Positions 6,681 to 40,537 of a DNA stretch of 45,187 nt are shown one piece after another; the stretch's first letter is position 1, and the number at the start of each line of letters is the position of its first letter. The stretch is taken from NCBI GenBank assembly GCA_011056835.1, contig DSDU01000096.1:1-45187 (forward strand), read 5' to 3'. A program made the position numbers and the translations under genes. A model generated the notes under the pieces. That model saw only the letters and a program-made list of their open reading frames with translations. It made no database searches and had not been told where the DNA came from. The stretch comes from Deltaproteobacteria bacterium (GTDB taxonomy: Bacteria; Desulfobacterota; Syntrophia; Syntrophales; UBA6807).

Positions 6681-7940
6681 TTATGCCTTCGTAAATATTT
6701 TTTTCACAGCCCCCACAAGATAGAATGAACCGGTAACGCAGATCATATCATTATCTTTCGCGAGTGAAAGGGCTTTGTCCAGAGCACCTCGAACATCTTC
6801 AATACACCATACCGCATCGGTATAGCGCCGGGCGGCTTCCGATAAAACCTGCGGATCAAGCGCACGTTCCGAATCTGGTTTCGTTACAATGATCATAGCG
6901 GCCGGTCGAGCGAGACTGCGCAGCATAGCACGGTAATCTTTATCCCTCAAGACACCGACAACAAGGATCATCTTATCATATGAAAAATCAGTAGCAAGGG
7001 ATTGAGATAAAGCTGCAGCGCCTGCAGGATTATGAGCTCCATCGATTACAAGAAGAGGTTTTCTGCTCAGCACCTCTAATCTCCCGTCACATCGTACATT
7101 TTTCAGTCCTCTTGAAATGGCATCCGGACTAATCGTGAATCCCTTCACGGTCAGGATATCAAGGACTCCCAAAGCGAGAAGCGCGTTATCTTTCTGGTGC
7201 TTTCCAGCAAGAGAAACTGACAGATTTTGATAGTCGTTGAAAATTCCATAATAGGAAAAGGTATCATGGCCCGACCTTCTCAAACGTATATCCCGTCCCG
7301 TGCAATATAGAGAAGCATTCAGCCCGCGACAGATCTTTTCGAGCACAGACCTGACAATCCGTTGTCTGGCGGCAGTCAAACAGATCCCGTTACGTTTGAT
7401 AATTCCCCCTTTTTCTCCGGCAATTGCCTGTAACGACTTACCCAGATAGGCCGTATGTTCCAATGAAACATTCGTGACGACCGAAACCTGGGGCACCACA
7501 ACATTCGTGGCATCCAACCTACCCCCCATGCCGACTTCGAGAACGGCAATATCGACTTTACGTCGCTCAAAATAACAAAACGCCAGGGCGGTGGCAAATT
7601 CAAAATACGTTATATCTTCCGTGATCTCTCTCCGCATCCGCTCTATGATATCGCAAAGCTCCTCATGGGAAATCATAAGAGTATCAACTCGTATGCGCTC
7701 CCTGAAATCAATGATATGAGGAGAGGTATACAGCCCCACGGTCAATCCGGCTTCGAGGAGCATTGATGAAGTCATCGCAGCAACCGATCCTTTCCCGTTC
7801 GATCCTCCGATATGAATGGTCGGATACTTTTTATGCGGGTTGCCGATGCGTCGAAGAAGTCTTGTTACAGGGCCGAGGTCAAGATTGATGCCTTTACTCT
7901 GAAGATTAAGAAAAAATGCGAGAGGATCAAGATTTGTCAT
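6681..7940 (-). CDS. folC: Folylpolyglutamate synthase / dihydrofolate synthase
   Basis: Adds glutamate to dihydropteroate and to reduced folates using ATP. The 419-residue protein belongs to the Mur-ligase-like superfamily. The P-loop GSNGKGS is at residues 46-52, the omega-loop region follows with TSPHIIDFRERIR, and the C-terminal domain has the DGAHNPAGA motif. It is probably co-transcribed with lptD downstream. accD, its common partner in proteobacteria, is not upstream; the neighbour is a metallo-hydrolase instead, 163 bases away with no clear promoter. Confidence 0.95.
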   Translation of the reverse strand: MTNLDPLAFFLNLQSKGINLDLGPVTRLLRRIGNPHKKYPTIHIGGSNGKGSVAAMTSSMLLEAGLTVGLYTSPHIIDFRERIRVDTLMISHEELCDIIERMRREITEDITYFEFATALAFCYFERRKVDIAVLEVGMGGRLDATNVVVPQVSVVTNVSLEHTAYLGKSLQAIAGEKGGIIKRNGICLTAARQRIVRSVLEKICRGLNASLYCTGRDIRLRRSGHDTFSYYGIFNDYQNLSVSLAGKHQKDNALLALGVLDILTVKGFTISPDAISRGLKNVRCDGRLEVLSRKPLLVIDGAHNPAGAAALSQSLATDFSYDKMILVVGVLRDKDYRAMLRSLARPAAMIIVTKPDSERALDPQVLSEAARRYTDAVWCIEDVRGALDKALSLAKDNDMICVTGSFYLVGAVKKIFTKA

Positions 7941-38966: not shown

Positions 38967-40472
38967 CTATTGATGTTCTGCGAATATATCGGCTGAGAAA
39001 ACATAAATCTCTGTTTCTCCATCCTTCCATGCATTGGCCGGCAGACCAGCCTTGTGACATGTTTCTTCCAGGAACGTGACCTTATCCCAGTTATATTGGG
39101 TTGCCACCTGGGGAAGCAGAACACCCCGGTACATCCCCCTCATAACATAAATACCGTGCTTGCCTACCTCGATCTCATCGATGCTTTTAATCTTGCGCAA
39201 TGGCGACAAGACCGATATCTCAATTTTCATCTCCTTCAACTCATTCGCCGACACCGGTGGAAAACGCGGGTCATGAAAAGCCGCTGACCGCGCCATTTCC
39301 TCAACGGTTTTGTAAAGCGATCCCCTTGCTTCAAATGATCCGATGCATCCTCGCAATTCTTCGTTCTTTTTCAACGTCACGAAAGCGCCCCGATTTTCAT
39401 GAAGACTTCTCAAATCTCTTGAAAATTCGGGCAATGCCTGATCCCTCAGCTGTAACTCGATACTTTTACGTGCGATAGCAAGAAGTTGTCTTTTTTCGTC
39501 ATCACTTAATCCTGATACCACACCCGCGTCCCCCCCCGCAGGCGATCGACCTGCGGCATGCTTCTTATAAAAGACGGCGGCGGCGTAACCGACAACCCCT
39601 TGCCGATCTCCCGTCACATCACCTGAGTTTGCATATTTCAAAATTTTTGCACTGTCAGCCCCCCGCTTTTGAGCAATCATAATCGCGGCAGCCACAGGTC
39701 CGCCGCCACAGGCTTCACACGAACCACTGTCGAGGTCCGCCAACAATCCCTGCCAATCCATCTTTTCAATATGCTTCAAAGCAATGGCATCCATGGCAGT
39801 CGCACGGTCATACCCATGGAAATGAGAGAGATCGGAACTTGCCACGATCAATACATTCTTATTTTTTGTTACGGCGGCTACTGCCGCGGACAGCGCCTCG
39901 CAGGTCCTTCGGTCCTGCGAGCCCATAACAACGGGAACAAAGGGAAAGTCTCCCAGCACGACCTGCAAAAAGGGGAGCTGAATTTCAACAGAATGCTCCT
40001 GGACATGAGCGGCCGGATTTATAGAAACAACATCACTCTGGGCGATGATTGCATCAGCCAATAACTTATCCACCTTCACGATTCCCAGCGGAGTTTCATA
40101 TCCCCCATCATTATATATAGATGCCCCCTGAAAGTATGCCCGATGACTCGGGCCGATGATGATCACCGAATCAAAGACTTTCCCGGCAATCTGCTTGTAT
40201 GAATGAGCGGCCACCTGACCGGAATAGGCATAGCCTGCGTGGGGAGAGACAAGAGCAACAATGATTCCGTCAACGGCGTCCGCCGGTGTGTTTGCCAGAT
40301 ACTCTTCCACCTGGTTCTTCAAAACGGTCGGATTTCCCGGGTACCATGACCCCGCAATGACCGATTTTCGAATACCACTTTTCACTTCGCTACCCCCTCC
40401 CTCATGAGAAAACAAAAAAACAAGGAAGATAACTGCGATTGCTCCCAGGATCTGTCGCATGGAATCATTCAT
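38967..40472 (-). CDS. MEMO1-AMMECR1 fusion (AmmeMemoRadiSam system proteins B + A), membrane-anchored or exported
   Basis: A 501-residue two-domain protein. Residues ~7-22 are a hydrophobic signal or anchor (ILGAIAVIFLVFLF). Residues ~33-305 are MEMO1-like, with the expected histidine and metal-site blocks SPHAGYAYSG, GPSHR, EHSVEIQLPFL and SSDLSHF, and Cys in SCEACGGGP. Residues ~322-498 are AMMECR1-like, with LRGCIGSF and FHDPRFPPV. Both families are associated with a radical SAM partner in the 'AmmeMemoRadiSam' set; the biochemical function is unknown. No radical SAM gene lies in the window. ATG 40472 lacks a clear ribosome binding site. It has its own promoter and reads toward the tRNA cluster. 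Confidence 0.9.
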   Translation of the reverse strand: MNDSMRQILGAIAVIFLVFLFSHEGGGSEVKSGIRKSVIAGSWYPGNPTVLKNQVEEYLANTPADAVDGIIVALVSPHAGYAYSGQVAAHSYKQIAGKVFDSVIIIGPSHRAYFQGASIYNDGGYETPLGIVKVDKLLADAIIAQSDVVSINPAAHVQEHSVEIQLPFLQVVLGDFPFVPVVMGSQDRRTCEALSAAVAAVTKNKNVLIVASSDLSHFHGYDRATAMDAIALKHIEKMDWQGLLADLDSGSCEACGGGPVAAAIMIAQKRGADSAKILKYANSGDVTGDRQGVVGYAAAVFYKKHAAGRSPAGGDAGVVSGLSDDEKRQLLAIARKSIELQLRDQALPEFSRDLRSLHENRGAFVTLKKNEELRGCIGSFEARGSLYKTVEEMARSAAFHDPRFPPVSANELKEMKIEISVLSPLRKIKSIDEIEVGKHGIYVMRGMYRGVLLPQVATQYNWDKVTFLEETCHKAGLPANAWKDGETEIYVFSADIFAEHQ

Positions 40473-40508: not shown

Positions 40509-40537
40509 TTAATATAAACTCATTAATTCCTTGTCAA
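40509..40537 (-). promoter_or_regulatory. Promoter of the MEMO1-AMMECR1 gene
   Basis: On the minus strand, a perfect TTGACA (40537-40532) is followed after 17 bases by TATTAA (40514-40509). The predicted start is about 30 bases before ATG 40472. It stands back to back with the gapA promoter. Confidence 0.65.

Follow-up and report, generated by a model that had tools for sequence, protein, structure and literature searches.

The window, a 45,187-nucleotide stretch of a Syntrophales draft genome (contig DSDU01000096.1, positions 1 to 45,187), carries on its reverse strand, where the parts of this gene located below also lie, an open reading frame (38967..40472) that encodes a Memo-AMMECR1 fusion of 501 aa when read from its first ATG (ATG1). 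Pfam placed a Memo domain at residues 39-300 (39573..40358; E = 2e-67) and an AMMECR1 domain at residues 332-497 (38982..39479; E = 3e-59). In NCBIfam, the protein passed the cut-offs of both AmmeMemoRadiSam protein B (TIGR04336/PF01875; 297 bits against a cut-off of 26, covering profile positions 1-270 of 270) and protein A (TIGR04335/PF01871; 197 bits against 99), confirming that the two families are fused in one chain, as a preliminary description of this locus had proposed. The residues expected of metal-site domains were intact as well. In an alignment of 94 fusions, in which some genes occur in several copies, H78 and H110 were present in 93 sequences and C255 in 92, and the L, R, G, C and final G of the LRGCIG core of the AMMECR1 domain were invariant (94/94). 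AlphaFold2 modelled both folds confidently (mean pLDDT 90), preceded by a leader helix at residues 2-21 and a low-confidence stretch at residues 23-30, and joined by a low-confidence linker (residues 307-319; 39516..39554). Since the pTM was 0.59, the mutual placement of the two domains is not fixed by the model. Foldseek matches of the predicted structure included MEMO1 and archaeal AMMECR1 structures.

The gene is flanked on one side by tRNAs, nusG and other translation genes, and on the other by the genes of GAPDH and triose-phosphate isomerase. It is the only AMMECR1 gene in its genome. Matches to the fusion protein were found in 142 of 149 genomes of a class sample, in many of them over the full length, and in 290 of 297 genomes of a phylum sample, often as one chain across both domains. 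Full-length fusions are therefore common throughout the phylum and the fusion is not a novelty; it supports the proposed link between proteins A and B, but because it is common it is not new evidence for that link. We distinguish type 1 fusions, which are orthologs of the window gene and are in some genomes split into two adjacent genes, from type 2 fusions, which are about 38-40% identical to the window protein and typically lie beside a radical SAM gene of TIGR04337.

No radical SAM gene adjoins the fusion gene in the neighbourhood covered by the open reading frame lists. The preliminary description was right on this point locally, but a search of the genome showed that two genes on other contigs, C43 and C48, score above the TIGR04337 cut-off. 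The C43 enzyme is plain, without a Tat signal, and had no sequence match among solved structures at E = 1e-5. The C48 enzyme carries a twin-arginine motif and a hydrophobic region (MTRREFIQTGIGASLALTPVGALAVP), by which it is a predicted Tat substrate, and TatC is encoded in the genome (E = 7e-76). A TGA codon within both radical SAM matches proved to be the natural C-terminal stop, and selenocysteine was rejected. The C48 locus (L008, 6707-11394) also encodes a spermidine-synthase-like membrane protein and a second, divergent Memo protein of 410 aa, whose extra N-terminal domain (about 110 aa) had no Pfam match.

The N-terminus of the long form, MNDSMRQILGAIAVIFLVFLFSHEGGGSEV, is hydrophobic, as described earlier, and forms the modelled helix (residues 2-21; 40410..40469). 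It has an h-region and a weakly charged n-region, with only weak signal-peptidase-like sites such as that between GGG and SEV; there is no lipobox, as no cysteine occurs among residues 1-46. Lipobox-like or standard signal peptides do occur among homologues, several of which have the lipobox cysteine. Compared with its closest relative, the window gene has a leader of the same length with 72% nucleotide identity; a second sister pair likewise showed equal length and 72% identity, and across the two pairs identity just upstream of ATG1 dropped to 45% or 37%. The pN/pS of the leader was about 0.5 in the sister-pair comparison. Leader length and hydrophobicity are kept across several families, and when neutral change was simulated, an open and equally hydrophobic leader survived in 0.7-5.5% of runs. 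Because the leader frame itself was picked by hydrophobicity, only the values of the other frames count as a control, and these were never as hydrophobic as the leader frame; chance hydrophobicity of T-rich upstream DNA was accordingly rejected. Together, these comparisons suggest that the leader is probably coding in the window gene. Several orthologs have no usable leader. In one genome (G059; locus L011, upstream of position 1552), a leader-like frame, MNRSFQITAWGILIFCLILSFSEKGG, does not share the reading frame of the Memo domain, the shift falling at eight consecutive G residues. This run may be an assembly error, a mutation or a slippage site; as this genome alone is out of frame, one of the first two is the simpler explanation, and a programmed frameshift was rejected. 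Upstream of ATG1, a candidate promoter (TTGACA-17-TATTAA; 40509..40537) was found by eye, though not reported by a promoter scan; its position would place the leader within the mRNA.

ATG1 (40470..40472) has no Shine-Dalgarno sequence (duplex energy -0.6 kcal/mol), so little or none of the long form may be made. By contrast, a GTG at residue 30 (40383..40385) is preceded by a strong internal Shine-Dalgarno sequence, GGGAGGGGG (40393..40401), with a duplex energy of -12.5 kcal/mol, nearly the strongest among 43 open reading frames of the window. From this GTG, a cytoplasmic form of 472 aa is predicted, which would skip the leader and begin where a Memo protein normally starts. All 23 type 1 orthologs tested had a strong Shine-Dalgarno sequence ahead of an ATG or GTG located 9-11 codons before an AGxWY motif. 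Among 79 fused genes, the best start near this position averaged -9.1 kcal/mol, with 76% at or below -7, against a mean of -3.1 kcal/mol and 8% for internal ATG/GTG control codons of the same genes. Codon choice favours the internal Shine-Dalgarno sequence beyond what the encoded amino acids demand (combined p = 0.002). When applied to the neighbouring GAPDH gene, the test recovered the expected start at codon 36 of its open reading frame. A first start poor in Shine-Dalgarno sequence is also seen elsewhere in the window, for instance in the open reading frame at 6681-7940. An internal start that omits the hydrophobic segment, which would speak against the earlier proposal that the leader places both domains outside the cytoplasm, is thus strongly predicted and conserved.

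The other part of that proposal, a form that is exported or held in the membrane, is likely, because the hydrophobic segment is conserved and co-occurs with a radical SAM partner that has a Tat signal. The C48 enzyme has orthologs in 14 of the 149 class genomes; where the type 1 fusion gene of these genomes was complete, it nearly always had a leader. Among type 1 fusions with data, counting a Tat-radical SAM gene only if it was not tied to another exported fusion, 26 genomes with a leader had such a gene and 2 did not, compared with 3 and 14 of the genomes without a leader (Fisher's exact test, which ignores shared ancestry: p = 4e-7). In the class sample alone, C48-enzyme orthologs were present in 11 and absent from 2 genomes with a leader, and present in 1 and absent from 9 without (p = 6e-4). 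The exceptions include a leader without Tat-radical SAM in G101 and G021, and the reverse in G126 and G304. Some of the Tat motifs among these radical SAM proteins are KR variants.

The occurrence of the internal start was related to AMMECR1 copy number. Where a leader-bearing fusion is the only AMMECR1 gene, an internal start was present in 45 of 52 genomes, and where a second AMMECR1 gene exists, in 3 of 24 (p = 6e-10); for type 2 fusions alone, the figures were 19 of 25 and 2 of 21 (p = 6e-6). These Fisher tests too take no account of shared ancestry, the genomes are drafts in which gene copies may be missed, and the cut-offs for leader, near-start and gene type (hydrophobicity, energy) were chosen during the analysis with the data in view. 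Trees indicated repeated changes in the traits compared, and independent tree pairs averaged 3.4 to 0 and 3.9 to 0.1 in the predicted direction, numbers too few for significance. An internal start that accompanies a single AMMECR1 gene, and rarely two, is expected if one gene serves two compartments, a need that falls away when a second copy takes on one of them.

A survey of other exported fusions, as suggested in the preliminary description, uncovered exported homologues at type 2 loci beside Tat-radical SAM genes. Tat-radical SAM comes first at these loci, then Memo-AMMECR1 behind a signal-peptide or lipobox-like leader, and then a membrane protein of about 720 aa that resembles spermidine synthase; the products of this operon all look exported or membrane-bound. 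This conserved unit was seen, for example, at loci L104, L106, L108, L113 and L114, and at L106 an extra small lipoprotein-like protein with a CXXCH motif lies between Memo-AMMECR1 and the ~720-aa protein. Among the 78 distinct Tat-like radical SAM proteins encoded at the loci, 19 also had a CXXCH motif, located after the Tat signal and ahead of the first cysteine cluster. These TIGR04337 proteins (L050-L052, L056, L060, L061, L063, L065, L071, L076, L117, L120, L211-L213, L215, L216, L219 and L222) carry it directly in front of that cluster, and in most of them a second stretch with a His comes after the motif; a radical SAM enzyme with covalently bound heme is possible. At five loci (L178, L180, L182, L185 and L191), another Tat-signalled protein, distinct from the first one and radical SAM-like with its CxxxCxxC cluster, is encoded nearby on the same or opposite strand. 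On a Bacteroidales contig (L045), a clear signal peptide precedes a Memo-AMMECR1 fusion, and the product of a nearby radical SAM gene has an SKREFL Tat-like motif, suggesting that the exported set is not confined to one phylum. In the literature searched, the scope of which did not extend to the main bioinformatic paper, in which Burroughs et al. (2019; doi 10.1074/jbc.RA119.007595) reportedly describe Memo-AMMECR1-radical SAM contexts, nothing relevant on exported or Tat-signalled radical SAM or AmmeMemoRadiSam proteins and no description of the relatives' operon were found.

From the fusion and its metal-site residues, the internal Shine-Dalgarno sequence and start, the conserved leader, the two radical SAM genes, TatC and the co-occurrence, all of them read from sequence, we infer that both starts are used, that the leader inserts into the membrane and that each form is paired with its own enzyme. 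We somewhat favour a reading in which one Memo-AMMECR1 gene has two starts and serves two compartments. The strong internal GTG would give a leaderless cytoplasmic protein of 472 aa, the partner of the AmmeMemoRadiSam radical SAM enzyme in the cytoplasm (C43). The weak ATG1 start would add the hydrophobic leader, leading to inner-membrane anchoring or export with both metal-site domains outside, and this form would work there with the Tat-signalled enzyme (C48). A single AMMECR1 gene could thereby supply two compartments. More tentatively, and with some doubt, the leader form may belong to a periplasmic AmmeMemoRadiSam system composed of a Tat-exported radical SAM enzyme (with a c-type heme motif in some relatives), exported Memo-AMMECR1 and the spermidine-synthase-like membrane protein, while the same gene would feed the cytoplasmic system through its internal start.

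The nearest competitor, which we consider rather unlikely, is that the protein is cytoplasmic only, starting at the internal GTG, with the hydrophobic stretch being either part of the 5' untranslated region or a relic in decay. The very strong internal Shine-Dalgarno sequence next to an ATG1 that has none, the GAPDH gene, whose expected start the same test finds inside its open reading frame, and the orthologs that lack a usable leader are consistent with it. Against it speak a leader that keeps its length and hydrophobicity in several families, conservation that falls off just ahead of ATG1 and the co-occurrence of leader and Tat-radical SAM, and a poor first start is no peculiarity of this gene in the window. 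Export only, from ATG1 and with both domains outside the cytoplasm, was the view of the preliminary description and now appears improbable. It agrees with the hydrophobic N-terminus, with the Tat-radical SAM and TatC of the genome, and with the clear exported homologues that have a Shine-Dalgarno sequence at the leader start and lie beside Tat-radical SAM genes. Fusions elsewhere that are exported only, however, mostly lack an internal start and mostly coexist with a second AMMECR1 gene, whereas the window gene has a strong and conserved internal start and its genome has no second copy. Least probable, in our judgement, is a cytoplasm-facing membrane tether or a regulatory leader unconnected to Tat-radical SAM: radical SAM chemistry as a rule depends on SAM and reductant from the cytoplasm, and the window protein has neither a lipobox nor a good cleavage site, but the signal peptides of its homologues and the co-occurrence with Tat-radical SAM argue against it.

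MEMO1 and AMMECR1 proteins are conserved to humans, and clues to their function are of interest. An exported form that has an exported radical SAM partner would narrow the substrate to what is accessible beyond the cytoplasm, and Tat export of a radical SAM enzyme would pose the problem of how SAM and electrons reach it. Through its link to copy number, the second start would also give a simple and testable example of how one bacterial gene can supply two compartments.

Among known systems, the closest is AmmeMemoRadiSam itself (TIGR04336, TIGR04335 and TIGR04337), with which the window gene shares both domains and a radical SAM enzyme in the genome. It differs in that the domains are in one chain with a leader and an internal start, the radical SAM genes are not adjacent, and one of them encodes a Tat signal. 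Human MEMO1 (PDB 7kq8, 7l5c) shares the fold, at a TM-score of 0.80 on the target, and its normal domain start corresponds to the internal start of the window gene; its Fe/Cu ligands H49, H81 and C244 (PMC11081632) align with H78, H110 and C255, although identity is about 24% and MEMO1 has no AMMECR1 domain joined to it. LigB-type extradiol dioxygenases (DesB, aminophenol dioxygenase) also share the fold and two histidines, but Cys255 occupies the position of the ligand glutamate in the window protein, which therefore lacks the 2-His-1-Glu iron site; dioxygenase activity was not found for MEMO1 (PMC11081632). Finally, HBP35 of Porphyromonas gingivalis is made from one gene in signal-peptide-bearing and leaderless forms by internal initiation, and PilB of Neisseria is cited there as another dual-form bacterial protein (PMC2907840). 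Although these cases were demonstrated by experiment and are unrelated in function, whereas ours is a comparative one, they resemble the arrangement proposed for the window gene, with one gene yielding a form with a leader and a form without.
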